From: Gluconobacter cerevisiae
GTDB taxonomy: Bacteria; Pseudomonadota; Alphaproteobacteria; Acetobacterales; Acetobacteraceae
Direction of reading: 5' to 3'
Assembly: GCF_015244675.1 (NCBI RefSeq)
Contig: NZ_JABCQO010000006.1
Coordinates: 62,001-126,000 of the forward strand
DNA: 64,000 bases
The translations under genes were made by a program, and so were the position numbers. Below the pieces are notes generated by a model, which ran no database searches, had not been told where the DNA came from, and was given only the letters and a program-made list of their open reading frames with translations. Every line of letters begins with the position of its first letter. Within the stretch, counting starts at the first letter, position 1. Below, piece after piece: positions 8,148 to 30,638 of this stretch.

Positions 8148-9038
8148 ATGCGTCGCAAATTCACGCTCGGAGTGCGCCTTGGTGCCCTGACAGCCTGGTT
8201 GCCTGCTGTTGCTCTCGTTCCGGGCTTTGCCGCTTATGGCGCGGATATTCCCCTGGCCATCATCGGGCCGCACGAATACGACCTGCCGGTGGATTTCAAG
8301 CCGTTCAACGTCGTCGTGCAGTATGGCGACGGCAATGCTGCCGGTTCGGTCTATGACAGCGGCGGTCAGCGCCGGGCGCATGGCGGCAGCCATACCTGGA
8401 GCGGTATGACGAAATATGTGCATTTCCGCAGTTTCGACGCCATTCCCCATGTCAGCTTCGCCTTCGAGTTGATCCAGTCCGAGGCCTATACGCTGGCCAA
8501 CGGACAGAACTGGGGCGGTCTGGGTACGACGATCGTCGGCCCGGCGGCGTGGTTCAAGCCGAATAAACACAGCACGCTCGGCATCCAGACCTTTATGGAA
8601 ACTCCGTCAGGGACGCGGGATGCCACGGCAATGCATTACTGGGCGAACCTATCGAGTATCATTTTCGATTACGAATGGAAGCATTTCAGCTTCGATGGCG
8701 ATCTGGGCAGCGTCGTGAGTTCGACCAAACACCGCAACGGCGAACATAGCTATTCGCCCGGCAACGTGTATTACACGAACCTGCGTTTCAGCTGGAAAGC
8801 CACGTCACGTTTCGAGCCGTTCTTTTCGCTCGACTGGCAAAACAGCGGCGGTATGCACGACAACACATCCAACCTCTGGGTCGCCAATTCGAGCAGCCGC
8901 GAAACGGCATTAGGCGTTGGTGCAATGTTCTATATCACCAAACGCCTGTCATTCACGCCCCGCTATTCCCATTCGGTCGAAGGACGGAACGTGCCGGAAA
9001 CGAACGCCTATTATATGAAGATCGCCTATCTCTTCTGA
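8148..9038 (+). CDS. Outer-membrane beta-barrel protein
   Basis: 296 residues from ATG 8148, starting MRRKFTLGVRLG with a signal peptide that likely ends after about residue 32 (PGFAAYGA). A further ATG at 8133 is in frame. The mature part is rich in alternating aromatic strands (for example FEPFFSLDWQNSG, LSFTPRYSHS) and ends with the outer-membrane signature ending in Phe (YYMKIAYLF). This fits a 12-strand-type barrel such as the nucleoside-channel or SphA/phenol-MetA families; I cannot assign one. It follows the quinoprotein dehydrogenase directly and may let its substrate through the outer membrane or anchor the product flow; this is inferred from position only. Confidence 0.75.
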   Translation: MRRKFTLGVRLGALTAWLPAVALVPGFAAYGADIPLAIIGPHEYDLPVDFKPFNVVVQYGDGNAAGSVYDSGGQRRAHGGSHTWSGMTKYVHFRSFDAIPHVSFAFELIQSEAYTLANGQNWGGLGTTIVGPAAWFKPNKHSTLGIQTFMETPSGTRDATAMHYWANLSSIIFDYEWKHFSFDGDLGSVVSSTKHRNGEHSYSPGNVYYTNLRFSWKATSRFEPFFSLDWQNSGGMHDNTSNLWVANSSSRETALGVGAMFYITKRLSFTPRYSHSVEGRNVPETNAYYMKIAYLF

Positions 9039-9041
9039 TCC

Positions 9042-10517
9042 TCAGGCCGCCGCCTTCGGACGAAAGCGCGCCGTAGTGATGTCGCAGTCATACTGTGCGG
9101 CGGTTTCGCAGGGATTGCTGGCGAGTTCGTTGACAGCCTCCAGAATGCGCTCAACCTTGGCGTCATCCATCAACACGCTGAAATTCAGGCGTGTCCAGCC
9201 CGGCTTTTCGATTTCCTGACCGGACAGGATGGCGCCACGGATCTGGTCCGATTCAGTCTCGTCGATCCCCAGAAGACGGTGCGCATAAGGCCCCGCACAT
9301 GCACAACCGCCCCGGACCTGAATGCCGTAACGGTCCGACAGCATGCGTGTGAAAAGCTGCTGATGGATGAACACGTTGTTTTTCACATCGCGGATACGGA
9401 ACGAAAAGATCGGAAGCGCGGCAGCGGTCGGGTGCCCCAGGATTTCGATGGAGGGATTGCCGGTCCAGGCCTTCATGGCCCGGGCGCGCAGTTCCTCATT
9501 GCGCTGCGCCATGTAGGCGTCCCCAATGACATCTTTGACGATGAAGGCGAGCGCAGCGCGGATATCCCCGATCACGTTCGGTGTGCCACTTTCCTCACGG
9601 GACGCAAGATTGGCGGAATAGTCGTGGTTCCACGGTGAGACGAACCGTACGGTGCCGCCGCCCGGAAGAACCGGCAATGTGCGCGAGATCGCGGCGTTGC
9701 GTACGATCAGAATGCCTGATGCTGCCGGGCCGCCGATGAATTTGTGACAGGAAACGACAACCGCATCTTTCTCGAACGGCGTTCCGGGCTGCATGTCGAT
9801 CGGGCAGTACGGTCCGGCTCCGGCATAGTCCCAGATCGACAGGGCGTTATTTTGTTTGAGCAGGGCCGTGACAGCGTTCACATCCGTCAGAATACCCGTG
9901 ACGTTGGAGGCGGCTGAAAAGGAACCAATTTTCAGACGGTCTGCCGGGCAGGATTTCAGTGCCCGTTCCAGAACATGCAGGTCGGGGCCACCTTCGGCCG
10001 CTTCGGGAATTTCGACGATCTCCGCACCGCTCTCGCGCCATGGCAGGATGTTGGAATGATGTTCGTAAGGGCCGATGAAAACGATCGGCTGCTTTCCCGC
10101 ATCACACAGAGCCGGGATCTCCAGCAGATGCACCAGACGGTTCAGTCCTGCTGTCGCGCCATTCCCCATGAAAATGGTCGTGAAATCGGAGGAGGGGGCG
10201 TGGCACAGTCGCGAGATGGTCGCACGGGCACTGCTGCGCAGGCGCGTCATGTAGGCGCCGCAGAAGGAGGCTTCGGTGTGGCTGTTGGCATAGAACGGCA
10301 GGATTTCGTCCATGATGAACGTCTCGACCTGCTTCAGCGCACGTCCTGAGGCAACATAATCGGCGTAAAGAAGGGACTGTGTGCCGAACGGCGTCGAGAA
10401 CTTCGCACCCTCACCGATTACGCCCTTGGCGAGCGCTGCCAGCCCGTTGCTGCGCAGGGACTGCCCGAACTGTTCGAGAATGGCAGTGCTGTTGTCGAGA
10501 TTGCCGATCGTTTCCAT
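9042..10517 (-). CDS. Class V aminotransferase family PLP enzyme (cysteine-desulfurase-like)
   Basis: 491-residue PLP enzyme of fold type I, class V. The Schiff-base lysine is Lys259 in VVVSCHKFIGGP, preceded by His258 as in desulfurases; the PLP-pairing Asp is about Asp230 (IWDYAGAG). The substrate loop YANSHTEASFCGAYMTRLR is near residues 76-94. A Cys-rich loop (RGGCACAG) occurs near residue 410 where desulfurases keep the catalytic Cys, but family members of this length are often lyases or epimerases, so the reaction is open. It is divergent from an Lrp-type regulator gene, with a permease gene beyond; together they look like an amino acid use module. Confidence 0.85.
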   Translation of the reverse strand: METIGNLDNSTAILEQFGQSLRSNGLAALAKGVIGEGAKFSTPFGTQSLLYADYVASGRALKQVETFIMDEILPFYANSHTEASFCGAYMTRLRSSARATISRLCHAPSSDFTTIFMGNGATAGLNRLVHLLEIPALCDAGKQPIVFIGPYEHHSNILPWRESGAEIVEIPEAAEGGPDLHVLERALKSCPADRLKIGSFSAASNVTGILTDVNAVTALLKQNNALSIWDYAGAGPYCPIDMQPGTPFEKDAVVVSCHKFIGGPAASGILIVRNAAISRTLPVLPGGGTVRFVSPWNHDYSANLASREESGTPNVIGDIRAALAFIVKDVIGDAYMAQRNEELRARAMKAWTGNPSIEILGHPTAAALPIFSFRIRDVKNNVFIHQQLFTRMLSDRYGIQVRGGCACAGPYAHRLLGIDETESDQIRGAILSGQEIEKPGWTRLNFSVLMDDAKVERILEAVNELASNPCETAAQYDCDITTARFRPKAAA

Positions 10518-10596
10518 AGCGCGATGTTCTTCCCCTGCGTGATGAAGGAACGATAGACCGATGGAATGCGCGAAAACCGCCTCTTTTTTGAGGATG

Positions 10597-10609
10597 AAAA
10601 ATCATTTTT
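10597..10609. promoter_or_regulatory. Small AT-rich palindrome, candidate Lrp-type site
   Basis: AAAAAT-C-ATTTTT, 19 bases before the Lrp-family gene start and 80 bases from the divergent PLP-enzyme start. Lrp/AsnC proteins bind degenerate AT-rich palindromes of this sort, usually in divergent gaps next to their own gene. Site assignment is by position and symmetry only. Confidence 0.4.
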
Positions 10610-10627
10610 GTGGTCATATGATGCGAT

Positions 10628-11089
10628 ATGGCCAGAAAAATCGATCAGACGGACAGGGCGATCCTGAGAATCCTCCAGAAACAGGGTACGCCCTCGCAGC
10701 GTGAGCTCGCCGAGAAGGTTGGGTTATCGCAGAATGCCTGCTGGCGGCGCCTGAATGCCCTGCGCGAGGATGGCGTGATCACTCACGATACGGTCCGTCT
10801 GAATGCAGCCGCGCTGGGCCTGACATTGACGGTGTTCGTGTTGATGCGGACGCGCCATCATTCGCGCGAATGGTTTGAGACATTCCGCAAGGTTGTCGGT
10901 TCGATCCCGAACATAGTTGATTTTTATCGGATCGCGGGCGAATACGATTATCTTCTGAAGGTGGTGGCCTGTGACATGAACGATTTCGATCGTGTGTATC
11001 AGCAGATCATCAGCAAGGTGGAACTCGATGCCATCACGTCATATATGACCATGGAAACCCTGGCGGACAACAGGGATCTTCCGGTCTGA
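10628..11089 (+). CDS. Lrp/AsnC-family transcriptional regulator
   Basis: 153 residues. N-terminal winged helix (about 5-55, with DRAILRILQ, QRELAEKVGLSQNACWRRLNAL) and C-terminal RAM ligand-binding domain (about 68-145, ending with the family pattern SYMTMETLADN). The conserved effector-loop segment IAGEYDYLLKVVACDMNDF is intact. It lies between a divergent PLP enzyme and a downstream APC permease, so it probably senses an amino acid that the permease imports and the enzyme degrades. Gap to the permease is 32 bases, consistent with one transcript. Confidence 0.94.
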   Translation: MARKIDQTDRAILRILQKQGTPSQRELAEKVGLSQNACWRRLNALREDGVITHDTVRLNAAALGLTLTVFVLMRTRHHSREWFETFRKVVGSIPNIVDFYRIAGEYDYLLKVVACDMNDFDRVYQQIISKVELDAITSYMTMETLADNRDLPV

Positions 11090-11121
11090 AACGTCTCTCC
11101 CGTCCACAGCAGGAAGTCTTT

Positions 11122-12426
11122 TTGTCCATGAGTCAGCCCGACCAGCTCGCCCACAGTCTGCGTACGCGCCATGTCGTCATGATCGCCCTTGGTGGTGTGA
11201 TCGGTGCAGGATATTTTATTGGGGCGTCCGCAGCGCTCTCGCTGGGTGGTCCTGCGGTCCTGCTCTCTTATGCGCTGGCCGGAACTCTGGTGTTTCTGGT
11301 CAATCTGATGATGCGCGATCTGGCGCTGAAAGTGCCGGGACGGGCCTCATTTCTGGGACAAATCCAGTATGCGCTAGGAGAGCGGGCAGCCTTTGTCGCG
11401 GGCTGGGCGTACTGGCTGACATGGATCATCGCGATTGCAGTGGAAGTCATCGCGGTTGCGACAATGCTCGCTCCTTATATTCCGCTGCCTTATGCCGTCA
11501 TTGAGGTGCTCATCATGGCCCTGATGACAGGCGTGAACCTCATGTCCGTCAAAGGGTACGGAGAATTCGAATACTGGTTCTCGGCCATCAAGGTTCTGGC
11601 GATTGTCTGCTTCATCGGGATCGGCGCCTGGGCGCTGCTGAGCCGCCCTGTTCCGGTGCATGGAAACCTGTTTGCACATGGCGGTCTGCTACCGCATGGC
11701 TGGCTGGCGCTTCTGGCGGTTATACCCACCATCCTGTTCTCCATGGGCGGCAGCGAGATTTCTACAGTTGCGGCTGTTGAATCCGACAATACGGAACAGA
11801 ACATCGTCCGCGCCACGCGCTCCATCGCGCTGCGGATCGGTGGGTTTTACATCGTCTCAATCGCGCTGGTCCTCTGTCTGGTGCCGTGGAGCGATGTCGT
11901 GCCGGGCTATTCGCCGTTCCTTCTGGTGCTGCACCGTCTGCATGTGCCGTTCGCTGATGTGGCTCTTGCGATCGTGGTGATGACGGCGGCGCTGTCCAGC
12001 CTCAATTCCGGGATCTATGTGACGTCGCGCATTCTGTACGAACTGGCGGAATCCGGGTCTGCACCAGGGCTGTTCCTGACGGTCGATACCTCCACAAAAC
12101 TCCCCCGTCGGGCCATTCTGGTGAGTGCGCTGGCCTCCATTCTCGTCGCAGCCGTGGCCGTGCTGTCGCCGACGCTGATCTTTGGACTGCTCGTCAGTCT
12201 GACGGGCGGCTTCATGGTGTTTAACAATACCATGATCGTGGCCGGCCGTCTGAAACTGGTGCGGGAGTCTGCCTGGAAGGCCTACGCGGCTCTGGTGCTG
12301 ATTGCCTGCACCCTGATCGCCATGCTGATTCAGCCCGAAACGCGCTCACAGATCATTCTCGGGGCCGGCGCGCTCCTGCTGATCTTCGCCGCAGAACGCT
12401 TTGTTCCGCGGCGCCAGCCGGACTGA
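11122..12426 (+). CDS. APC-family amino acid permease
   Basis: Inner-membrane amino acid transporter of 434 residues with about 12 hydrophobic segments. The first helix carries the APC signature IALGGVIGAGYFIGAS; ISTVAAVESDN after helix 6 fits the GABA/AAT-type permeases (AnsP, CycA, GabP group). The start is taken as TTG 11122 because AGGA lies 7 bases ahead; ATG 11128 is 2 codons inside and equally workable for the protein. It follows the Lrp-type gene and probably imports the inducing amino acid, judging from context only. Confidence 0.9.
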   Translation: MSMSQPDQLAHSLRTRHVVMIALGGVIGAGYFIGASAALSLGGPAVLLSYALAGTLVFLVNLMMRDLALKVPGRASFLGQIQYALGERAAFVAGWAYWLTWIIAIAVEVIAVATMLAPYIPLPYAVIEVLIMALMTGVNLMSVKGYGEFEYWFSAIKVLAIVCFIGIGAWALLSRPVPVHGNLFAHGGLLPHGWLALLAVIPTILFSMGGSEISTVAAVESDNTEQNIVRATRSIALRIGGFYIVSIALVLCLVPWSDVVPGYSPFLLVLHRLHVPFADVALAIVVMTAALSSLNSGIYVTSRILYELAESGSAPGLFLTVDTSTKLPRRAILVSALASILVAAVAVLSPTLIFGLLVSLTGGFMVFNNTMIVAGRLKLVRESAWKAYAALVLIACTLIAMLIQPETRSQIILGAGALLLIFAAERFVPRRQPD

Positions 12427-12430
12427 TGAC

Positions 12431-13534
12431 TTAGTAAGGCACCGCCAGATCCCGGTCGTTGATTTTTTCAAAGACCGGTTTTGGCGTGTCGTGAAACGTC
12501 TGGAGTGAGAATTTTCGGTAACTGATATCCTTATATCCTCGGACGAACATCACTCCGTCGCTCAGGTCGGAGAGGGCTGTCCAGACGGTATATTCAGAGA
12601 CCGTTTTTCCGGATTCCTTCTGTGTCTCGCCGCCAAGCGTATCGGTGGTAATGTTTTTCATGCGATCAAACCGGTTCATGATATGCGCCAGAATGTTGAT
12701 CGCATCTCCTGATGACTGGGCCACGGGTGCATAGCTGGTGTAGTAAACGCCGCGAATGAAACGTCCGACAGAAGTGTCTGAGGATGGCAGATCCGAAGCC
12801 ACAATCCCGCTATCCGGCTGGACGACTTTCATGCTTCCCAGAGTAGCCGCAGATCTGTCCTGATTGGTCAGCTGCGTATAATTGTTCAGGTTCTGGAGAT
12901 GCCACGGAAAATCCGGTCCGTTCGTCATGACCTTCGTCGGGTTGTCATAGACATGGAATTTTCCATTGAGCGTCTCGACGACGATGCTTCCGCCGTTTTT
13001 ATCGTAAAACCCAAAATGAAAAGGCGATTTCACACCACCCAGTCTGGTCAGAACGGGGGACCAGAAATGCCCATTGTCAACGGCCTTCCGGACTTCATCC
13101 ACGGTGGCGAAACTGGCCAGTGCCCACTCCCCCAGCGATGTCACAGGAATGGATTCCCGGTAGTCTGATTCCGCAAGTGGAGTGAGCGTGGCGTCTGGCA
13201 CCATATTGGCGCTGAAAGACAGGCCCGCCCCATTCATACCCTCAAGCATGTTGTGGTCGTCACCATCATCATAGACGGGCGTGGTAATCGCCAGAATGGG
13301 ATAGAGAGACTTGTAATGCGCTCCGGCAGTGCCGTTCGGCGCTTTTTTCTGGAACGCGGTCTGTGCGGGATAAAAAGTCACCCATGACGGCAGACCTTCA
13401 GGAAGCTCCAATGTGCGTCCATGAAAAACATGGCCCTTGTTATCCGTAATCGCCAGACTTGAGCAGGCCTGCCCGATGGTAGGGAATAAAAGGACAGAGG
13501 ACAGCATCATACTGGAAAGAGGCGTTATTTTCAT
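12431..13534 (-). CDS. Exported choloylglycine hydrolase / penicillin V acylase family Ntn hydrolase
   Basis: 367 residues from ATG 13534, which has AGGA 10 bases upstream. A signal peptide (MKITPL, hydrophobic core LSSVLLFPTI) ends at GQA, which leaves Cys24 (CSSLAI) as the likely first residue of the mature protein: in Ntn hydrolases a free N-terminal Cys is the nucleophile. Further family features are HGRTLELP, the MEGMNGAGLS-like loop (LEGMNGAGLSFSANM) and a late Asn/Arg-containing region. Substrate could be a linear amide such as N-acyl homoserine lactone, penicillin V or a bile-salt-like amide. It is convergent with the permease gene. Confidence 0.85.
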   Translation of the reverse strand: MKITPLSSMMLSSVLLFPTIGQACSSLAITDNKGHVFHGRTLELPEGLPSWVTFYPAQTAFQKKAPNGTAGAHYKSLYPILAITTPVYDDGDDHNMLEGMNGAGLSFSANMVPDATLTPLAESDYRESIPVTSLGEWALASFATVDEVRKAVDNGHFWSPVLTRLGGVKSPFHFGFYDKNGGSIVVETLNGKFHVYDNPTKVMTNGPDFPWHLQNLNNYTQLTNQDRSAATLGSMKVVQPDSGIVASDLPSSDTSVGRFIRGVYYTSYAPVAQSSGDAINILAHIMNRFDRMKNITTDTLGGETQKESGKTVSEYTVWTALSDLSDGVMFVRGYKDISYRKFSLQTFHDTPKPVFEKINDRDLAVPY

Positions 13535-13674
13535 TGGGTTAGTCCTGAAAATCGTATTTGACAATTTTTTGCGTGGATAATTCAGAATTTTTTATCTTCA
13601 TTAAAGACGAAATATTTATCAGGAAGTTTCTTAACTTGGAGTAAAGTCACACTATGAGCCATGGGATGGGACTT

Positions 13675-14073
13675 CTAGAATAACGCTCCCTGTGCCGGGC
13701 TTCCGGGGATGCTCGCTCCAAAATCCCGCTCGATCCAACATCGGAGCACGAGTAGGATCTGTTCCTGCTGCTCGGGCGTCAGGGGTTTGCCCGGCCCCAT
13801 GCCGTGCCATTTCGACAGACAACTGCGGCAACAGGCTCCCGTAGCATGTTGGGCAATGAAGACTGGATGACCGCGCATGGGGGTCTGCTTCCCATCGCGT
13901 GGCGGGTGTGCTGGGGCGAGGCGTTCGGCGATGAAGGCCGCTCCATGACCCATGACAGCATCAAGGCCCCGGCTTTCCAGATAGAGTCGGGCCTGATCGT
14001 CCAGATGAAAGCGTGAGCGGAAACGGGATTGGGCGAGGCGTTTGAAGAGATCTTCGGGGTCAAAACGGCTCAC
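13675..14073 (-). CDS. DUF4186 family protein
   Basis: 132 residues matching the DUF4186 pattern throughout: FRSRFHLDDQARLYLESRGL near 19-38, then RLAPAHPPRDGKQTPMRGHPVFIAQHATGACCRSCLSKWHG to about 90. The His, Arg and CC-x-x-C residues in the last part suggest a metal site. The function of the family is unknown. It is transcribed divergently from the XseA-like gene with a 93-base gap. Confidence 0.88.
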   Translation of the reverse strand: MSRFDPEDLFKRLAQSRFRSRFHLDDQARLYLESRGLDAVMGHGAAFIAERLAPAHPPRDGKQTPMRGHPVFIAQHATGACCRSCLSKWHGMGPGKPLTPEQQEQILLVLRCWIERDFGASIPGSPAQGALF

Positions 14074-14166
14074 TGATCCACAACCTTCTGAAAAACAGGC
14101 AAAAAATCGCGTGAGAGGGCGCCAGCCCCCTGTAAGAACATTTGTTCTTTCTCCATATGGTGACGG

Positions 14167-15201
14167 ATGGACGCTTTTCCGAGACGCTCCCGCTCATCGT
14201 CCGGGGCAGGAGACACCACAACACTGACGGTTCTCTCTCCGCTACAGGTGCAGGACTTGTTCTCCGTGCGACTGGAGGAAATCTGTGCGGCTTTCGACGA
14301 GTGGGGCTTTCCACTGATCGTGGCTGGACAGCTTGGCGATGCTGCGCCCAATTCCTACCCGAAATATTACCAGCTTCCGCTCACCGATCCGCAGTTCGGG
14401 ACCACCCTGTCGCTGGAAGTGCAGAAATCCGTTCTGGTACGGGCCGGTGTCGGTCCTGGCGATCATGTCCATGTGACCGGGATGCTGCGGGCGCGGCAAT
14501 ATCGCGGGCAGGTCGTCCTGCGTTTTGAGGCAGTGGCCGTTGAACTTCACGACCCAGCCCGCCAGAAGGTCGAGCGTGTTGAGCGATCCATACTCGATGT
14601 TCTGCGCGGACTGCCCTGCGCCTCTCACTCTTATCCAACCCGCCCTGAGGCGCGACTGCTGCTGATCCACTCGGCAGCATCCAGTGCACTGGTGGCCGAG
14701 GATTTTCTTCAGGCGCTGGGCGGAGCGTGGCGCCCGGAGCGTGTGAGAAGTCTGCCCACACCCATGAACGATCCCGGCCGTCTGGCGGAGGCGATCGGCA
14801 CCTGTCGTGAAGAGATCGTTGTTCTGATCCGCGGAGGCGGGGATGCTTCGGATTTCGTCGTGTTTGAAAACCCGCAAGTGATGGAAGCGCTGGCCGTCTG
14901 TCCGGCGCATCGGGTTCTGGGGCTGGGACATACAGCCAATCGCACTCTGGCTGAACGTGTCGTAGACCATGCAGCCACCACGCCCGCCGATGCCGGACAC
15001 TATATCCGGCGTATGAGCGGCCGGATATGGCAGGAACAGGAAGAAGCCCGTGCGCAGCAGGAAGAAATGGCCGCACTTCGGGACAGCGTGGCGCTGAATG
15101 TCGTGCCGGAACGGGCACCCATCGCAGCGCGCCTGCGTAGTGGGCTGATATTGCTTGCGATTGGCTTGGCGCTGGGTCTGCTACTGACCCGGCTACTCTG
15201 A
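14167..15201 (+). CDS. Exonuclease VII large subunit (XseA)-like protein with C-terminal membrane anchor
   Basis: 344 residues. An OB-fold part (about 22-130; LIVAGQLGD, VHVTGMLRARQYRGQVVLRFEAVAV) precedes an XseA-type core with RGGGDASDFVVFENPQVMEALA (about 218-239), GLGHTANRTLAERVVDHAATTPADAGHYI (about 258-286). In real XseA (about 400-450 residues) the core is followed by a long coiled coil that binds XseB. Here only a short charged coil (about 293-320) remains, then a single hydrophobic helix (LILLAIGLALGLLL) at the C-terminus. It is therefore probably a membrane-attached XseA paralogue rather than the housekeeping subunit. No xseB lies beside it. Confidence 0.72.
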   Translation: MDAFPRRSRSSSGAGDTTTLTVLSPLQVQDLFSVRLEEICAAFDEWGFPLIVAGQLGDAAPNSYPKYYQLPLTDPQFGTTLSLEVQKSVLVRAGVGPGDHVHVTGMLRARQYRGQVVLRFEAVAVELHDPARQKVERVERSILDVLRGLPCASHSYPTRPEARLLLIHSAASSALVAEDFLQALGGAWRPERVRSLPTPMNDPGRLAEAIGTCREEIVVLIRGGGDASDFVVFENPQVMEALAVCPAHRVLGLGHTANRTLAERVVDHAATTPADAGHYIRRMSGRIWQEQEEARAQQEEMAALRDSVALNVVPERAPIAARLRSGLILLAIGLALGLLLTRLL

Positions 15202-24169: not shown

Positions 24170-24255
24170 GGAGAGGTGCCCGAGTGGCTAAAGGGGGCGG
24201 ACTGTAAATCCGCTGGCGTACGCCTACGTTGGTTCGAATCCAACTCTCTCCACCA
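24170..24255 (+). tRNA. tRNA-Tyr (anticodon GTA)
   Basis: 86 bases including encoded CCA. The acceptor GGAGAGG pairs with the 3' CTCTCC region, the D arm holds GAGTGGCTAAAGGGG, and the anticodon loop is CTGTAAA with anticodon GTA. A class II long variable arm (TGGCGTACGCCTACG) and the T arm TTGGTTCGAATCCAA follow. The long arm with GTA identifies tyrosine. Its 3' end is the insertion site of the integrated element; a 21-bp copy of the end (TCCAACTC through CAGGTC) recurs at 30500-30520. Confidence 0.97.
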
Positions 24256-24259
24256 GGTC
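24239..24259. repeat. Left attachment site (attL) in tRNA-Tyr 3' end
   Basis: 21 bp beginning TCCAACTCTC and ending CACCAGGTC, exactly repeated at 30500-30520 (attR). It spans the end of the T arm and acceptor stem plus CCA and four flanking bases, the usual tRNA target for tyrosine integrases. The tRNA stays intact on this side. Confidence 0.9.
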
Positions 24260-24341
24260 CCCTCCATCTAACTGATTGTTTTGACTGTTTTTTCCCTAAC
24301 GGGTCAGTTTGTGCTCATTGTAGCACAGGGCTGTAGCACCG

Positions 24342-26174
24342 ATGGGCATTGGCAGCTTTGTCTATCGTCGCGGTGATACCTATTCGTTCAGGTGTCGCGT
24401 GCCAGCGCATTTGCGCGCTAAGACCAGAAAGCAAGAGCTTGTTTTTGCGGTCGGAACCCGAGATCGTGATGTTGCACGGGTCTTGTGTGCCGCCATCGGC
24501 TGGCGGGTCAAACGGCTGTGGGTGGAGTTGGCGCACGTGGCGAGCTTTGAAGACGTTGATCGGCTCATTCGGGAATGGTTTGATTCTGCCGTTCAACGTG
24601 CTTGGACCGATAATTTTCGTGACCCAGCTCGGGATGAGCTTGTCGCTGAGCGAAAGGCCTCTCTGGAAAAAGAGGTGCCCGGCGTAAAGGTCGATTTTAA
24701 GCAAGAGCGGGACAAGTTTGCCGCTGATTATGCCGAGCATATATTGCGGCAAATTGAGGAGGGCGCGGTTGACGTGTCATCCTTTCGAGATGTGGCTCTC
24801 AAGATCGCAGCCTCTACGTCACCGGCTATTTCTCCAGACGATAGGAGGGTCGAGGTGATTGCGGGGCAAGTCTTAGCTGGTGAAGCAGAGGTCGCGGAGA
24901 CTGTCCTCGAATGGGCTAATGGAAGGACGGACTTTCAGCCTGCCTGGAAGCCATCTCTGCCGAAAGACCTTTTCCAGCCCACTGTTAAGAAGGAAGAGCC
25001 GTCAAAAACGAAAAGAGCGTGCTCTTCGTCAGCAAAAACCGGCGAGCTTACAATTTCTCAAGCGCTTCAGAGATATGTTGATGAGCGCAAACCGGAGACT
25101 GCTACGGTCGCAAGCTTCCAAACGTCTATCCGGCGGTTTGTCGAATTGTTTGGGGATCTGGATGTCTCGCAGATTACGAAACGGCAAGTTGCCGAATTCA
25201 AAGATGTATTGTTGAAAATCCCGGCGAGGCTCAAGCCGTCGGAGCGTTTGTTGACGGTTCAGGAAGTGCTCAAACTGTATGAAGACAGGGAAGATGTTCC
25301 CAAGCTGTCGGCAGCTACGATCAATAACAAGCATCTTGCTGCCTTGTCGGTGGCTCTTAGGTGGGCTTCGGATAATGGTTATATTGATCAGGTCGTGTCG
25401 CGCGAAGTTCGTGCAAAAGCTGGGGCAAAAACGGCAAAGGCACCGAGGCTGCCTTATACGCTAGAGGATCTGAAGGCAATTTTTGCGCTGCCTATGTTCG
25501 TGAATGGCGAGCGGTCGGCAGCTGGTGCGGGTGAGGCGGCTGTCTGGCTGCCGATCTTAGCTTTGTATTCTGGCGCACGCCTGAATGAACTTGGAACATT
25601 GAAAATTACAGATGTGACGCGGGAAGGGGGCGTGGACACGCTCCGTATTCGGGCTGGAAAGACGGTTAACGCTGTCCGGCGCATCCCTATTCATGATGAA
25701 GTGAAGCGTCTCGGATTCCTGCGCTACGTCGAGGAAAGGCGTTTATCTGATAAAGGTCTAGACGGACTTCTCTTTCCTATGATCCGTGCCGAGACGTCTA
25801 AAGGGAAAAAACCCACCAGTCCTTTTTCGAACTGGTGGGGACGTGAAGCCCGAAAGGCAGTTCCGGCGCTTAACAAATCTTTCCACTCTTTCCGGCATAC
25901 GGCGAAGCGTGCTCTCCGTAACGCTCGTGTGGATAAGACACTGCGCGATGCTGTCATGGGGCACGAAGCGGGTGATGTGGCAGAGGCCTATGGTCTGGAT
26001 GAAACTGGTAGCGGCTTTGAGTTGGCAGTTTTGAACAAAGCGATTCAGGCAATTCAGTATCCGGGATTAGAAATTAAGCTGGCACCTGCGAAAAAAATGA
26101 GCATGCGGGGCGTTAGAAAGGTGCGCCTTGATCCTAAGAACCCTCACAAGCGTTCTGTTCTGACAAAAAGTTGA
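24342..26174 (+). CDS. Tyrosine site-specific recombinase (integrase) of the tRNA-Tyr element
   Basis: 610 residues. The N-terminus (FVYRRGDTYSFRCRVPAHLRAKTRKQ) matches the DUF6538-type arm-binding region of proteobacterial integrases; a SAM-like core-binding domain starts around residue 235 (ISQALQRYVDERKPETATVASFQTSIRRFVELFGD). The catalytic domain has Arg in YSGARLNELGTLK, HSFRHTAKRAL (H-x-x-R) and the nucleophile Tyr in GDVAEAYGLDE. It reads away from the tRNA into the element, immediately after attL, the standard place for an integrase acting on its own attachment site. Longer than typical (about 400) because of an extended linker between N-terminal and core domains. Confidence 0.93.
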   Translation: MGIGSFVYRRGDTYSFRCRVPAHLRAKTRKQELVFAVGTRDRDVARVLCAAIGWRVKRLWVELAHVASFEDVDRLIREWFDSAVQRAWTDNFRDPARDELVAERKASLEKEVPGVKVDFKQERDKFAADYAEHILRQIEEGAVDVSSFRDVALKIAASTSPAISPDDRRVEVIAGQVLAGEAEVAETVLEWANGRTDFQPAWKPSLPKDLFQPTVKKEEPSKTKRACSSSAKTGELTISQALQRYVDERKPETATVASFQTSIRRFVELFGDLDVSQITKRQVAEFKDVLLKIPARLKPSERLLTVQEVLKLYEDREDVPKLSAATINNKHLAALSVALRWASDNGYIDQVVSREVRAKAGAKTAKAPRLPYTLEDLKAIFALPMFVNGERSAAGAGEAAVWLPILALYSGARLNELGTLKITDVTREGGVDTLRIRAGKTVNAVRRIPIHDEVKRLGFLRYVEERRLSDKGLDGLLFPMIRAETSKGKKPTSPFSNWWGREARKAVPALNKSFHSFRHTAKRALRNARVDKTLRDAVMGHEAGDVAEAYGLDETGSGFELAVLNKAIQAIQYPGLEIKLAPAKKMSMRGVRKVRLDPKNPHKRSVLTKS

Positions 26175-26194
26175 TAGGGACCAGAGAGTTTTTA

Positions 26195-27697
26195 TCACGG
26201 TCGTAAGCCTGAGCTAGCAAGGCATTTTCGCCTTCCGCGTTCTGCCTTGGAGAGCCACCCGGCATCTTCGGCGTTATGGAGCGTCAGCCCTTGAGCTTCG
26301 AGGCTTTTCCAGTCCAAGTCCCGAGAGAAGCGCAGACGTCGCGTAATGCTCATGTCGGAGACTTGAGGTTGATAGGCGCGAAGATCCTGAGAGGCGATCA
26401 GGTGCCCATCCTCGTCCTTCTCAGGGCGGATCTGTGCTAGGGTAGAGCTTTGGCCTCCTATCGTAGCGCAAACGCTCTGAGCGGCACTCTTGCAGAAATA
26501 GGCGGCGGTTCCCCAGCGGCGGTCCGAGGACATAAAGCGGCTGGCAGAATGCCGAATGAATGACGCTTCCCCGCGAAGATCGAACGGCAGCTTGTGCGTG
26601 CTGATAGCCTTATCAAGCTTGCCGGGATCTTGACGATAATCGGCAAGAAGCTGTTCCCCTCCGTCAAACAGGCGAGAAACGGCACGCAAGACGATTTCTG
26701 CGGCAGCTTGGTTGGGAAGGTGACAAAGAATATGGGCGTGGATGCCTGCGCCGCCAGCCTGAGGACATTCCAGCACCTTAATGAAGGACAAGGGGCTGCC
26801 CAGCGGCCGTGCAAGGTTATTTAGAGTGTGAGCAAGGGCTTTTGCTGAGGCTTTGCGTGCCTGATCTCGTGCGGCGTGTTCTGCTTTCGTCCGCGGCTCT
26901 CGCTGGGCAGAACCGTCCCAGTGCTCACGATATTCGGTGCTTAGATCCAGCCGGACCAAGATCGCCGCATTTAAAGGTTTGCCTTTCTGTTCGGCTCCCA
27001 TCATCGCAAGCTGGACATGAGCAACATCATGCGCCGTCAGATCCGATGTTTTTCGCCGCTTATGGCTAGCGTTGAGGTTCGTCGTGTTTGCAAAGGAAAC
27101 ATTAATAGGGGGCTCTGGGCGTTCTAGCTCATCTAACAACCTTAGATCATGTTCGGAAAGGGAACCTGTCTCTGAGTTTGGATCCCAATCTGGGCTGTAG
27201 TCTCTGTACTCACTGAATGAAAGAGAAGGGTATGGAAATACCCCCCAGCGCGCAGACGCAGGTGAAGCAACGGATTCGACTGTGGATTCTATCCCGGAAA
27301 ACTCTGTTTTTTGGACCTTTGGGGCTGGCGGCATAAGGGCTGGGGTTAATTCATTCAGATTTTTCGTGGAGGTATCGCTCTTTGAGTAAATTTCCCCCTT
27401 TGACCCAGCCTCAGTCGGTTTGAAGGGACTAAGCGTGACTTCATGCCTGCGGGCACGCTTTAAGACATCTAGAGCCACTTCTGAAGCGTCCACCGGATGT
27501 CCAAGGCGGTGATGGAACCCCAACCCCATGCCCTGTATCAGACGGTCTTCAGCCGTCAGGCCCTTCTTGCAGTTCTCTTCAAGCGCCAGCCGAACGGCGG
27601 ATAGCGTTCCGTCCTGTCGAGAAGATGCTTGTGTTAGGAGATGCGCTTCAAGGCTGTGAAGGGCCGAACTGACGTCTGTAGGAAGAGCTGCTGGCAT
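26195..27697 (-). CDS. HUH-superfamily Rep-like protein (probable rolling-circle replication initiator or relaxase)
   Basis: 500 residues. The key part is about 245-405: a strand with NAAILVRLDL, the HUH motif His320-Ala-His322 in GAGIHAHILCHLP, and a putative nucleophile Tyr400 with Lys403 (AAYFCKSA, Y-x-x-K). The preceding segment SFIKVLECPQAGGAG fits the strand before the HUH motif in rolling-circle Rep proteins. The first about 220 residues are low-complexity or variable and not recognised. It is convergent with the integrase. In a plasmid-like element this protein would nick an origin; no partner relaxase-accessory gene is seen. Alternative: a mobilisation (Mob) relaxase. Confidence 0.72.
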   Translation of the reverse strand: MPAALPTDVSSALHSLEAHLLTQASSRQDGTLSAVRLALEENCKKGLTAEDRLIQGMGLGFHHRLGHPVDASEVALDVLKRARRHEVTLSPFKPTEAGSKGEIYSKSDTSTKNLNELTPALMPPAPKVQKTEFSGIESTVESVASPASARWGVFPYPSLSFSEYRDYSPDWDPNSETGSLSEHDLRLLDELERPEPPINVSFANTTNLNASHKRRKTSDLTAHDVAHVQLAMMGAEQKGKPLNAAILVRLDLSTEYREHWDGSAQREPRTKAEHAARDQARKASAKALAHTLNNLARPLGSPLSFIKVLECPQAGGAGIHAHILCHLPNQAAAEIVLRAVSRLFDGGEQLLADYRQDPGKLDKAISTHKLPFDLRGEASFIRHSASRFMSSDRRWGTAAYFCKSAAQSVCATIGGQSSTLAQIRPEKDEDGHLIASQDLRAYQPQVSDMSITRRLRFSRDLDWKSLEAQGLTLHNAEDAGWLSKAERGRRKCLASSGLRP

Positions 27698-27777
27698 CTT
27701 TTGCGCTTTTGGAATTCTCTGTCTGTAGAGAAGGGGACGGATAGGGCCGATTTCAAGGGTTTTCTAAGACTTCGACT

Positions 27778-28371
27778 TTATTCATTTTCGACGATAACGT
27801 CGTGGCATTCCGCTTCCTCGGGCGCTTCCAATGAGAACATGTCTTCAACGGCAGCAAGAGGGTCTTCCCGGTGATGTTGGTTTCTGATCGCTGTGACCTC
27901 TTCAGGAGTTAGTTCCCGGATGATTAATTCCGGCAGGACTTCATCAGCGGCGTGATGATCAACTTCCAGAATGTTGCGACCAATCGCAATCAGGATCTTC
28001 AAGGCGTCTGCTCCGGCACTCAGGGCGCGGATCGCGCGAGCGTCAGGAGCAGGCGCAGCAATCTCTTCTCTGAGACGCGTCTGAAGCGTCTGACTGTCAG
28101 CCCATGCCGCTTGCCGCCAGTGTCGGGTCGCCTCTTCGCGATCTGCCACGTCCGGAATAGAAGTCGCTACCAAGGAAGGCTCCGCGCTCGTGGTGGAGGG
28201 AGCTAAGGCAACGCGGCGGCGTTCTAGAGCGGCAGGAAGATGGGTGGCGACGGTTCGCATGCTCACGCCCCAACGATCAGCGAGAACGTTGTAGTCGTCG
28301 CCTCGGCTGTGCTCTTCTGCGGCTTGATCCCATTCTGCCGCTGTTAAAACCTTGTACCGCCGCCGTGCCAT
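27778..28371 (-). CDS. Putative DNA-binding HTH protein of the element
   Basis: 197 residues from ATG 28371. The N-terminal part reads like a helix-turn-helix (AAEEHSRGDDYNVLADRWGVSMRTVATHLPAALERRR, about 14-52). The rest is alpha-helical, acidic and not recognised (LREEIAAPAPDARAIRALSAGADALKILIAIGRNILEVD, about 105-145). The tail is Glu-rich. It could be a regulator of the element or a terminase-small-subunit-like HTH protein, but I cannot confirm either. It lies between the Rep-like gene and the serine recombinase, all on the minus strand. A frame longer at the N-terminus up to 28548 exists but overlaps the recombinase. Confidence 0.6.
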   Translation of the reverse strand: MARRRYKVLTAAEWDQAAEEHSRGDDYNVLADRWGVSMRTVATHLPAALERRRVALAPSTTSAEPSLVATSIPDVADREEATRHWRQAAWADSQTLQTRLREEIAAPAPDARAIRALSAGADALKILIAIGRNILEVDHHAADEVLPELIIRELTPEEVTAIRNQHHREDPLAAVEDMFSLEAPEEAECHDVIVENE

Positions 28372-28516
28372 CTCGTTCCACTCCACGCAATCTTCCGTGT
28401 TTGTCGATGAACAATTATACCACAAAACATAGTGATTTGCAGATTGCATTTTTGGAAGGCGGCAAGGATGCAAAGACTGTCGCCGGGCACGAAGCCTGAA
28501 CCGAGATGGAAAGATA

Positions 28517-29083
28517 CTATTTAGCCGCCGGAAAAGCTTCTTTCGCAATGCGGTGAACGGTCATGCGGGTGATGCCCAGCGCTGTGGCAATGCTGCTCTT
28601 GCCTTCACCGGCAGTCAGGCGGCGTATGACCTCTTCCCGATCTACAGAAGCCTTGCGGCCTTTATAAACGCCCTTTGCTTTCGCAGCAGCGATACCTTCC
28701 AACTGACGTTCTTTGCGGAGGTTGGTCTCGAATTCTGCGAAAACACCCAACATGTCTAAAAATGCTTTACCTGCTGCTGTGCTGGTGTCGATCGGCTGTT
28801 CTGTGCAGCGTAATGCGATACCTGCCTGTCTCAGACGGCTGATGATGGTTTGCAGGTCTGCAACGGAGCGGGCAAGGCGGTCAATGCGCGTGACCGTCAG
28901 CGTATCCCCCTCGCGGGCATACGTTAGCGCCTCTTCCAATGCGGAGCGCCCGGCGGTCGATGTGCCGCTCTTCTTTTCGGTGAAGATCTGTGTGCAGCCA
29001 GCGGCGGTGAGTGCCGCTGTTTGAATTTCAAGAGATTGGACAACGGACGAAACGCGGGCATAACCGATGATAGTCGCTGGCAT
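28517..29083 (-). CDS. Serine recombinase (Tn3 resolvase / DNA invertase family)
   Basis: 188 residues, the standard small size. IIGYARVSS places the catalytic serine at Ser12; RSALEEALTYAREGDTLTVTRIDRLARSVADLQTI is the conserved dimer and active-site region with its Arg residues; a C-terminal HTH (EGKSSIATALGITRMTVHRIAKEAF) binds the site. ATG has AAGG 8 bases upstream. A repeat-rich stretch in front of it (29101-29220) is a likely res/binding site, so it probably resolves dimers of the element or inverts something. No invertible segment is visible. Confidence 0.93.
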   Translation of the reverse strand: MPATIIGYARVSSVVQSLEIQTAALTAAGCTQIFTEKKSGTSTAGRSALEEALTYAREGDTLTVTRIDRLARSVADLQTIISRLRQAGIALRCTEQPIDTSTAAGKAFLDMLGVFAEFETNLRKERQLEGIAAAKAKGVYKGRKASVDREEVIRRLTAGEGKSSIATALGITRMTVHRIAKEAFPAAK

Positions 29084-29101
29084 GGGAATGGCCTTATGAG
29101 T

Positions 29102-29220
29102 GTAACTTTTGACTCTAGACCATTCTCATATGAAGTAACTTAATTGGATTCTCAACCCTAAAGTTACGGATAGCACTACCTTTTCCGGCAGGGTATGTTA
29201 CGTAACTTTAGGGTATACCC
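29102..29220. repeat. Res-like repeat region in front of the serine recombinase
   Basis: The stretch carries GTAACTT at about 29102, 29135 and 29202 and its inverse AAGTTAC at 29161. Two of these form a 12-bp inverted repeat: CCCTAAAGTTAC at 29156-29167 and GTAACTTTAGGG at 29202-29213. Small palindromes GTTACGTAAC (29197-29206) and GGGTATACCC (29211-29220) follow. Repeated half-sites spaced over about 120 bases directly upstream of a resolvase gene resemble a res site with several subsites. Confidence 0.55.
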
Positions 29221-29519
29221 TATTTATTGCATTTATATCGCAGGGTTCCTGTGTGTTCTAAACACAATCCAAAGATATCTTTTGAGCGACATTTTATCTC
29301 TTCTTCAGAAAACGAAGCGCTTGTAAAGCCGCGTAACTTACATTCGTGATCTGCGTTGCGTTGTGATGTTTCTTTGTCCACCTGCGGGTCTATAAACCAT
29401 ATATATCCGTATTTTGTGGATACATCTGATGGTTGTTTTGAGTTGTTGTTTAGCTCTGGACTGACATTCATAGCGCATCCAGAAAGTATGAGAGAGAAAA
29501 AAATAATAGATCTGTTCAA
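29220..29519 (-). CDS. Small lipoprotein of the element
   Basis: 99 residues from TTG 29519 (AAGG upstream), giving MNRSIIFFSLILSGC with a clear lipobox. An ATG at 29573 in frame gives a longer, unsuited leader and would overlap the HNH gene by 41 bases. The mature part has six Cys (for example HECKLRGF, IKCRSKDIFGLCLEH, LRYKCNK) and may be disulfide-stabilised. No family recognised. It sits between the res-like stretch and the HNH gene in a low-GC segment typical of recently acquired DNA. A surface or periplasmic role (such as exclusion of a competitor) is only a guess. Confidence 0.6.
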   Translation of the reverse strand: MNRSIIFFSLILSGCAMNVSPELNNNSKQPSDVSTKYGYIWFIDPQVDKETSQRNADHECKLRGFTSASFSEEEIKCRSKDIFGLCLEHTGTLRYKCNK

Positions 29520-29532
29520 GGGTGTTGCCTTT

Positions 29533-30282
29533 TTATTTTTCGTTAGCTGAAACGAGAAGAACGCGAAGCTCATCCAGACTCAACCAAGGACGCTTCGCAT
29601 GAATCATCCTGTGGCAATTTGCACAAAGGAGCGCCAAATCGGCTAACTGCGTATTTCCTGCTCCGGCCAAGTCTGCCAGCGGCTTTATATGGTGGCATTC
29701 TATAAATCCATCTCCGCGAGCGCCGTATCGTTCGGCGAAATCAAAGCTACAAGCCTCGCAGGTCAGGCGACCCATCTTATTCAAGGCATCCTGCTTCTTT
29801 GCCTTAACGATCTTTTGCGACCGCTCCCGGCGATGGTGCATGACTGTCAGAAGCCGTCCTTCTGGAGCTTCCGCCTCATTTGGGTCGTGAATCTCATCAC
29901 TTTCGACCTCAATGTGGATGGCCTTTCTCGATACAATTGCTCGCCGAATTGCATCAGCAGTCTCTTGAAGATGTCGAGGATCATCTTCGAAGTCGGCCCA
30001 TACCTCACGCTCTATATGATTTCCTGCTTTCAGGCCTGCCTTGTCGGGGTATGCGGGATCATGAGCGCGAAGGTTCATGAGTTTCATTTTCACGCCATTA
30101 GTATTGCGCAGTGTCGCTCCTTCATGGCCCCGGGCATGCCAGAAGCTATTAAGGGTATCGCTAAGCGCTGCGACGCGAGAGTCACTTTCTCGGGGCCAAG
30201 CTCCTTGAACTTGGCGATAGAGATCCAACGCCAAAATGATCTCGTCACGAGTCCAAGGTGGGTTCCGCTTCTTTTTCGCCAT
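29533..30282 (-). CDS. HNH endonuclease
   Basis: 249 residues. The C-terminal half carries a complete HNH motif with a zinc-type arrangement: CEACSFDFAERYG, then ECHHIKPL and a later CANCHRMIHAKRP. The N-terminal part has WTRDEIILALDLYRQV, a short alpha-helical domain of the kind seen in front of HNH nucleases of type IV restriction (McrA/ScoMcrA-like), followed by a conserved-looking linker. It is the last gene before attR and so belongs to the element. It could be a defence nuclease that cuts incoming modified DNA, or a homing-type nuclease; it carries no methyltransferase partner. Confidence 0.85.
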   Translation of the reverse strand: MAKKKRNPPWTRDEIILALDLYRQVQGAWPRESDSRVAALSDTLNSFWHARGHEGATLRNTNGVKMKLMNLRAHDPAYPDKAGLKAGNHIEREVWADFEDDPRHLQETADAIRRAIVSRKAIHIEVESDEIHDPNEAEAPEGRLLTVMHHRRERSQKIVKAKKQDALNKMGRLTCEACSFDFAERYGARGDGFIECHHIKPLADLAGAGNTQLADLALLCANCHRMIHAKRPWLSLDELRVLLVSANEK

Positions 30283-30638
30283 TATTCAGTTAGCCGTACA
30301 TTATCCTTAAAGATGTCCCATGATACGTTCTGAGGAGGCAGAAAACTATTCCGCAGATTGATATTTCGTCTCTATTACGGGATCGTCTGTGACGGCTGAT
30401 ATGCCGCTCGCCGGGCTGTAGCACATGAGAGTCAGTCTTTAGATTTTTCGGATGATAACTATATGTTTTTACGGTGCTTTATGATGAATGAGAGCTGTCT
30501 CCAACTCTCTCCACCAGGTCTTCTCATAAATTTTGAGCTGCTACGGTAAGGTAGAAGTATTAGGCTCCCTTACCGATTAGAGGGCTTCTTTCGTCCAGAT
30601 GCTCTTGGTGACAGACGACCCGTATTTGGGAGGCTCGT
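30283..30638. other. Right end of the tRNA-Tyr element and flanking gap
   Basis: No gene supported. The stretch is AT-rich to about 30490, then holds attR (30500-30520); beyond it the host-type GC content returns. The part left of attR belongs to the element. Confidence 0.6.
30500..30520. repeat. Right attachment site (attR)
   Basis: Identical to the 21 bp at 24239-24259 (start TCCAACTCTC, end CAGGTC). The bases on both outer sides differ from attL, so it is an isolated repeat rather than a second tRNA. Confidence 0.9.

Follow-up and report, generated by a model that had tools for sequence, protein, structure and literature searches.

Actinomycete integrative and conjugative elements (AICEs), such as pSAM2, combine a tyrosine integrase acting at the 3′ end of a tRNA gene with a replication protein of the RepSA, RepAM or Prim-Pol type; in the RepSA type it is a rolling-circle Rep that serves the excised form (PMC3218068). 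Integrative and mobilizable elements (IMEs) of streptococci likewise pair a tyrosine integrase with an HUH protein of Rep descent and have no type IV secretion system (T4SS) of their own. In a survey of them (PMC5357655), relaxases resembling rolling-circle replication (RCR) initiators are reported from 118 of 144 elements, all 118 with tyrosine integrases; these relaxases belong to the Rep_trans, Rep_2, Viral_Rep or PHA00330 families, and 83 of the 118 elements encode a TcpA coupling protein, the rest none of that kind. Here we describe an integrative element at a tRNA-Tyr gene of Gluconobacter cerevisiae. It lies in a stretch of 64,000 nt (contig NZ_JABCQO010000006.1, positions 62,001 to 126,000), which is called the window below and supplies all coordinates. 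It is fairly probable, in our judgement, that the element is an integrative rolling-circle replicon, a variant of the IME and AICE kind with an unusual HUH protein. Mobilizable islands of the SGI1 type are reportedly comparable in being integrative elements with a multimer-resolution system. They are larger, are mobilised by IncA/IncC plasmids and use other integrase and replication genes.

The six proteins of the element were scanned against Pfam, PHROGs and NCBIfam, and no match was obtained to relaxase, T4SS, capsid or terminase families, to MobC or a coupling protein, to the FtsK/SpoIIIE-type Tra family, or to satellite-regulator, packaging and capsid-hijack families. AICEs, in contrast, rely on an FtsK-type Tra for transfer, occur in another phylum and have a Rep of a different family, as far as scans with these three profile collections can show. 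From streptococcal IMEs the element differs by an HUH protein without an assigned family, by its small serine recombinase and by the absence of a matched coupling protein. Among the matches listed, mostly papers outside subscription journals, none of those on DUF6538, on satellites, on islands of Gluconobacter or on integrative elements of the HUH or rolling-circle type describes this element; PMC12324425 concerns a different, oceanic one. A sequence-only reading, made from the window alone, had known no named family with exactly this layout. The papers listed agree with it on the layout, but the element still falls within a known kind, that of AICEs and of IMEs with RCR-initiator-like relaxases.

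Target gene, ends and empty site

The element is bounded by a 21-bp direct repeat, TCCAACTCTCTCCACCAGGTC, whose copies at 24239–24259 (attL core, plus strand) and 30500–30520 (attR core, plus strand) lie 6,261 bp apart in the window. The target is the tRNA-Tyr (GTA) gene at 24170–24255 on the plus strand, which was recognised by ARAGORN and Rfam RF00005, reads as intact beside the element and is the sole tRNA gene that ARAGORN reports in the window. Since positions 24239–24255 are the 3′ end of this gene, 17 nt of the core lie inside the tRNA and 4 nt (GGTC) past it. The longest exact match to the tRNA-Tyr gene elsewhere on the plus strand of the window is the 17-nt tail, and the next longest has 11 nt. 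With 52.4% GC the element is poorer in GC than either side (58.8% and 56.4%), and a whole-genome check for a second copy found the element to be single-copy. This is an integrative element at tRNA-Tyr, bounded by a repeat of the tRNA 3′ end and with its integrase gene adjoining; the sequence-only reading had described it in the same terms, as about 6.26 kb between 21-bp tRNA-Tyr repeats with the integrase at attL.

The tRNA-Tyr gene was read in each of 26 Gluconobacter genomes, the source genome (G000) included. All 26 matched the joined flanks of the element in part, and only one, G009, did so by a single match across the junction, covering 1,458 of 1,460 nt at 86% identity. Taken singly, the left flank matches there at 93% identity (1,000 bp) and the right flank at 85% (1,827 bp). 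These matches share precisely the 21-bp core, of which G009 has a single copy, and no match to the element was found in the 16 kb of G009 that were compared. The HUH protein is encoded in three of the 26 genomes, the source genome included, and a close integrase (about 75% identity) is found in the same three. In both sister species the element occupies the same tRNA-Tyr gene between identical 21-bp cores, which are 9,462 bp apart in G. morbifer G707 (L006) and 9,827 bp apart in G. potus R-71646 (L007). An empty site and recurrence of the gene block with its repeats at tRNA-Tyr were what the sequence-only reading had proposed to look for, and both were found. Genome comparison establishes both the integration and its site.

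Sequences that the integrase may bind lie close to the cores. Two candidate arm sites, TGTAGCAC at 24319 and 24332 (24319–24339, plus strand), stand beside attL, and a third, CTGTAGCAC at 30416–30424 (plus strand), beside attR. The exact octamer TGTAGCAC occurs three times on both strands of the window, each time within about 85 bp of a core, with two copies beside attL and one beside attR, at equivalent places in all three elements. When one mismatch is allowed, the nonamer CTGTAGCAC is found 7 times against 7.8 expected, which is chance level, so that the evidence for arm sites consists of position and conservation. The integrase would recombine the 21-bp core at the 3′ end of tRNA-Tyr, leaving the tRNA intact, and would presumably excise the element as a circle.

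The same attachment site is used by other elements. Of the 23 other tRNA-Tyr loci, two repeat the last 12 nt of the tRNA exactly in the stretch downstream (G007 at 7.0 kb and G017 at 18.5 kb), and both belong to other elements; in the other 21 no such copy was found. The downstream stretches covered 0.75 to 19 kb, and distant copies could be missed where they are short, a risk that is greatest in G001 (0.75 kb) and G015 (4.7 kb). Besides a distant integrase, the 7.0-kb element of G007 (L051, about 8150–15170) encodes a CAP12/Pycsar TIR effector, an HNH_3 protein, a serine recombinase and a 467-aa protein that Pfam does not match. The 18.5-kb insertion of G017 (L047) is bounded by a second tRNA-Tyr and contains a relative of the serine recombinase (39% identity). 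A 5.5-kb contig of G022 holds an integrase relative with a broken frame (62% identity in the C-terminal part) and a short C-terminal piece resembling the HUH protein (E 1.7e-4 against a tiny set, E 0.04 by profile); it was judged to be a degraded relative and left out of the counts.

Fixed ends and a changing middle

The integrase gene lies on the plus strand at attL, and the other five genes lie on the minus strand, with the HNH gene next to attR. The integrase (24342–26174, 610 aa) has a DUF6538 N-terminal domain (PF20172, E 7e-12) and a tyrosine recombinase domain (PF00589, E 1.7e-7). It is followed by the HUH gene (26195–27697), by the gene of a helix-turn-helix (HTH) DNA-binding protein of 197 aa (27778–28371, start taken at ATG 28371; phrog_867, E 1.1e-7) with syntenic homologues in both sisters, and by that of a small serine recombinase of the resolvase/invertase type (28517–29083, 188 aa; PF00239, E 4.5e-41; PF02796, E 5.3e-7). 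A YecR-like lipoprotein (29220–29573; PF13992, E 1.2e-9) and the HNH nuclease (29533–30282, 249 aa; PF01844, E 5.2e-9) complete the set. The integrase, HUH-like protein, serine recombinase and HNH protein had already been recognised in the sequence-only reading, which had not mentioned the HTH and lipoprotein genes; its statement that capsid, terminase and type IV secretion genes are missing is borne out by the scans given above.

Comparison of the three elements reveals a distinct pattern. The left 1.98 kb, with the tRNA, attL and the integrase gene, is 74–86% identical in DNA among them, and the right 0.98 kb, with the HNH gene and attR, is 88–91% identical. The middle of the window element, on the other hand, aligns as DNA only in short pieces, of 34 nt to one sister and of 117 and 287 nt to the other, whereas the two sister middles are 82% identical to each other over most of the replication genes. 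The order of HUH, HTH and serine recombinase genes is kept, with amino acid identities between window and sisters of 46%, 38–58% and 37–38%, respectively; that of the HNH protein is 88–89%. The gene between serine recombinase and HNH varies, being the lipoprotein in the window, a 401-aa HNH_2 protein in G. morbifer and a DUF5677-like protein, below cut-off, in G. potus. This build of fixed ends and a changing middle suggests that replication modules have been exchanged between elements at one attachment site. The G. potus element also encodes a 313-aa cargo protein without a Pfam or PADLOC match (L007, 6885–7826), in which a YRG-containing stretch is reminiscent of ADP-ribosyltransferases.

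The ratio of nonsynonymous to synonymous substitution rates (dN/dS) is low at the two ends: pairwise values among the three elements are 0.09–0.14 for the integrase and 0.09–0.17 for the HNH protein. Between the sisters it is 0.37 for the HUH protein and 0.10 for the serine recombinase; comparison with the window gives 0.24 or a saturated value for the former and 0.36 and 0.55 (dS 1.4–2.0) for the latter. For the HTH protein every pairwise value is saturated. These values bear on the idea that the locus is a dead genomic island, a remnant past excision and replication that is kept, if at all, for its HNH gene. The high identity retained at the HNH end would fit this idea, as would the dN/dS of the HUH protein, higher than that of the integrase, the lack of an excised-circle junction in the genus assemblies (see below), and an HNH relative that another genus has beside tRNA-Tyr, with neither an integrase nor an HUH gene close by. 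However, all six open reading frames (ORFs) are open, catalytic motifs are visible by eye in the integrase, recombinase, HNH and HUH proteins, the integrase has the low dN/dS just given, and the three elements all retain intact cores and arm sites. We regard a dead island as very unlikely.

Upstream of the recombinase gene of the window lies a perfect inverted repeat with 14-bp arms (29155–29168 and 29201–29214) and a 32-nt spacer. In G. potus the best pair at this place has 8-nt arms 40 nt apart, and upstream of the G. morbifer recombinase no inverted-repeat arms reach 7 nt. The 32-nt spacing is unlike that of a canonical res sub-site, and a canonical res reading was not adopted. The repeat may be the recombinase's site or an operator. 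The recombinase would presumably resolve multimers, and dimer resolution at res-like repeats is a guess. In a DNA search of plasmids with the whole element, 594 records match; among the 20 listed, all matches are to the recombinase gene, 4% of the query.

The HUH protein and probable rolling-circle replication

The gene at 26195–27697 (minus strand) encodes a 500-aa HUH endonuclease-like protein with HxH at residues 320–322, Y400 and K403. Besides the homologues of the two sister species, a fourth, distant relative (24–28% identity) was found in another genus of the family (G271). In all four homologues a Glu stands nine residues ahead of the HxH (E-x9-HxH), a Y-x-C-K motif follows, and its Tyr lies 71–80 residues beyond the second His. 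The fuller pattern was written after the family had been seen; of the 495 ORFs (150 aa or longer) in the window and 25 sister loci, only the window's HUH protein has it, while HxH followed by YxxK alone occurs in four. A His motif ahead of the Tyr is the order of replication initiators, and canonical conjugative relaxases differ in this respect. The Rep-type order is consistent with rolling-circle replication.

The HUH protein, with its single candidate catalytic Tyr, would presumably nick the circle and start rolling-circle replication, and the element probably copies itself as a circle. Excision, replication and multimer resolution are all predicted here from the families to which the proteins belong.

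Several results weigh against this picture. PF23343 (REP_ORF2-G2P) matches the three Gluconobacter HUH proteins only below its cut-off, at 14.4–17.1 bits against 27.8 (E 0.044 and 14.5 bits for that of the window), the distant homologue of G271 has no Pfam match at all, and the HUH genes of G010, G012 and G271 were missing from the results of a PF23343 search across whole genomes. Profile comparison with the true Reps of the genus was not significant (E 0.068 and 0.26; probability 0.8% and 0.2%), although the weak alignments place HUH on HUH. Modelling the structure of the HUH domain from three aligned sequences gave a poor result, with a predicted local distance difference test (pLDDT) score of 40. 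An excisionase, an origin and a res site were not identified in the element, and no attP junction of an excised circle turned up in the 26 genus assemblies when up to 3 mismatches were allowed. Finally, G004 and G002, the nearest genomes by left flank (94% and 91%), resume the right flank only at query position 1051–1052, so their sites are neither occupied by the element nor clean.

With motif order conserved on one side, and weak profile comparison and a poor structure model on the other, the HUH protein is assigned to the Rep type with moderate confidence. The HUH protein named in the sequence-only reading thus has sub-threshold Pfam support and motifs conserved in four homologues. Weak matches to structures in the PDB were to antibody light chains and were taken as noise.

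The protein is rare. It was found in 2 of 397 genomes of a draw from the family (own included, the two sister species left out) and in 1 of 385 of a draw from the class, which is its own genome; 72,556 plasmid and 50,697 phage records gave no match at E 1e-5. Searches of genome contigs, viral contigs, plasmids and phages yielded no relatives beyond the two Gluconobacter species already found. A search with the G271 homologue, run up to E 10, added two plasmid matches at E 2 and 4, which were taken as noise, and no phage match.

The absence from phage records is also relevant to a phage satellite, in which the replicated circle would be packaged by a helper phage and the HNH protein would interfere with rival phages. 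Size and tRNA site are compatible with this. The only distant relative of the element outside the genus, in G271, carries head-scaffold-like and tape-measure genes, and one viral contig encodes a partial relative of the HNH protein (47% over residues 3–97). But no terminase, capsid or satellite-regulator family was matched among the six proteins, and IMG/VR yielded neither an HUH or integrase relative, searched by degenerate patterns, nor either att-arm pattern. By tblastn, the HUH and HTH proteins have no match in the phage records and the integrase only four, at 27–30% identity; one of the records matched by the integrase, MT838812, bears no annotation. The element of G271 itself looks degraded, so its phage genes may be unrelated insertions. 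A satellite is unlikely. The sequence-only reading had called the element an integrative rolling-circle plasmid or satellite; integration at tRNA-Tyr and the Rep motif order favour the first half of that description, and the viral searches speak against the second.

The G271 element just mentioned extends over 20 kb at a tRNA-Ser gene (L066:15565 to L008:17610) and is bounded by an 18-nt repeat. It has related integrase, HUH and HTH genes, with the head-scaffold-like and tape-measure genes between integrase and HUH gene, and a transposase (rve and HTH_38) that we take to be IS30-like. One of its recombinase genes is cut to 105 codons while another is whole, and the transposase gene overlaps the start of the HUH gene; the element looks degraded.

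Cargo, transfer and related elements

The HNH protein presumably acts as restriction-type defence cargo, judging by its relatives. PADLOC models for HNH (E 1.1e-8), mREase_IV (E 1e-5) and type II HNH (E 9.7e-5) match it, as does the McrA structure PDB 6ghc (E 1.5e-4) over the HNH part only. The 6ghc match spans residues 168–238 and the mREase_IV match 169–232, and the N-terminal part matches the PADLOC HNH model. Since McrA, general HNH and type II HNH models all match, more than one class is possible for the HNH protein.

Relatives at E 1e-20 occur in 4 of 249 genomes of the family, own included. The three others adjoin tRNA-Tyr, tRNA-Ser and tRNA-Glu genes, at about 0.1, 0.5 and 0.9 kb, and the other five element proteins were not found in the stretches around them. 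The one beside tRNA-Tyr (G097, L098:9683–10608) is from another genus and 64% identical; no integrase or HUH relative was found in the 19.5 kb searched, and the gene may be what is left of such an element. The HNH protein is matched by 200 plasmid records, all below 60% identity and nine over at least 80% of its length. A Psychrobacter plasmid has an HNH relative beside a restriction-modification pair.

The genus also harbours elements with recognised mobilization genes. A PF23343 search of eight genomes, with a profile that also scores above cut-off in 2 of 14 control genomes, found six Reps above cut-off; they are spread over four Gluconobacter genomes, and the window's own genome accounts for two. 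The elements that hold these Reps have a DUF6538-type integrase and sit at tRNA-Leu or tRNA-Gln (L113–L118; G000:C22, G000:C17, G010:C16, G022:C182, G022:C155 and G002:C5). Their content comprises the integrase, a REP_ORF2-G2P/GPA Rep, MobC, a MobA/VirD2 relaxase, small serine recombinases and variable cargo such as UvrD-like helicases. Pfam confirmed the full set of integrase, MobC, MobA/VirD2 relaxase and two small serine recombinases in L118 only, and MobC in L117; ORFs of similar appearance lie in the remaining loci. One such element of G. morbifer is bounded by a 24-bp tRNA-tail repeat, its copies 14.2 kb apart. In the own genome the contigs stop about 0.3 kb past a MobC-like ORF, so that a relaxase is not seen there, and in C22 a first insertion of 5.1 kb at tRNA-Leu precedes the Rep-bearing element.

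These tRNA-Leu and tRNA-Gln elements are IME-like. They share with the window element a DUF6538 integrase, an HUH protein, small serine recombinases and a tRNA 3′-end target, and differ in having a Pfam-recognised Rep, MobC and a MobA/VirD2 relaxase, the last two without a match in the window element. The latter looks like a stripped-down counterpart of them with a different HUH protein. Its integrase is 21–23% identical to two of three tested IME-like integrases and does not align with the third at E 1e-3, a distant relationship that makes descent from them uncertain.

It is possible, though rather unlikely, that the window element is itself an IME, whose HUH protein is a non-canonical relaxase nicking an origin of transfer (oriT) on the circle, with the strand leaving through a co-resident conjugative apparatus and replication being secondary. 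The RCR-initiator-like relaxases of streptococcal IMEs cited above provide a precedent, elements with MobC and relaxase exist in the same genus, and a VirB4-family gene is present in all three genomes with the tRNA-Tyr element (weak, E about 2e-6, in G000 and G010; strong in G012) and was not found in G009 and G002. Against this stand the Rep-like order of HUH and Tyr, which by the general rule is unlike that of canonical MOB relaxases, and the lack of a MobC or coupling-protein match or an identified oriT. The VirB4 association amounts to three of three against none of two, and G022 and G271 also have the gene.

For an integrative rolling-circle replicon, which we favour, no transfer gene was recognised, so that movement between cells would need help. 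It might occur by mobilisation through a helper apparatus, with the HUH protein possibly doubling as relaxase, or by passive transfer. The VirB4-family genes in all three host genomes, two of them weak, make helper-mediated mobilisation plausible.

A bolder interpretation is that the three copies represent a new minimal lineage of integrative rolling-circle replicons in acetic acid bacteria, with an HUH initiator family below all curated cut-offs tested, fixed ends between which replication module and cargo are exchanged, and one HUH protein for replication and transfer; in this full form we think it doubtful. The points of interest are the HUH family and the fixed-ends, changing-middle build of a real and recurrent integrative element. 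Small integrated elements that have a replication initiator and no recognisable transfer genes are easily overlooked by annotation. With three copies that have diverged in nature, an empty site and IME-like elements that bear relaxases, one genus of industrial use offers a way to test whether a Rep-type HUH protein is by itself enough to carry an integrative element, and by what route such elements spread.

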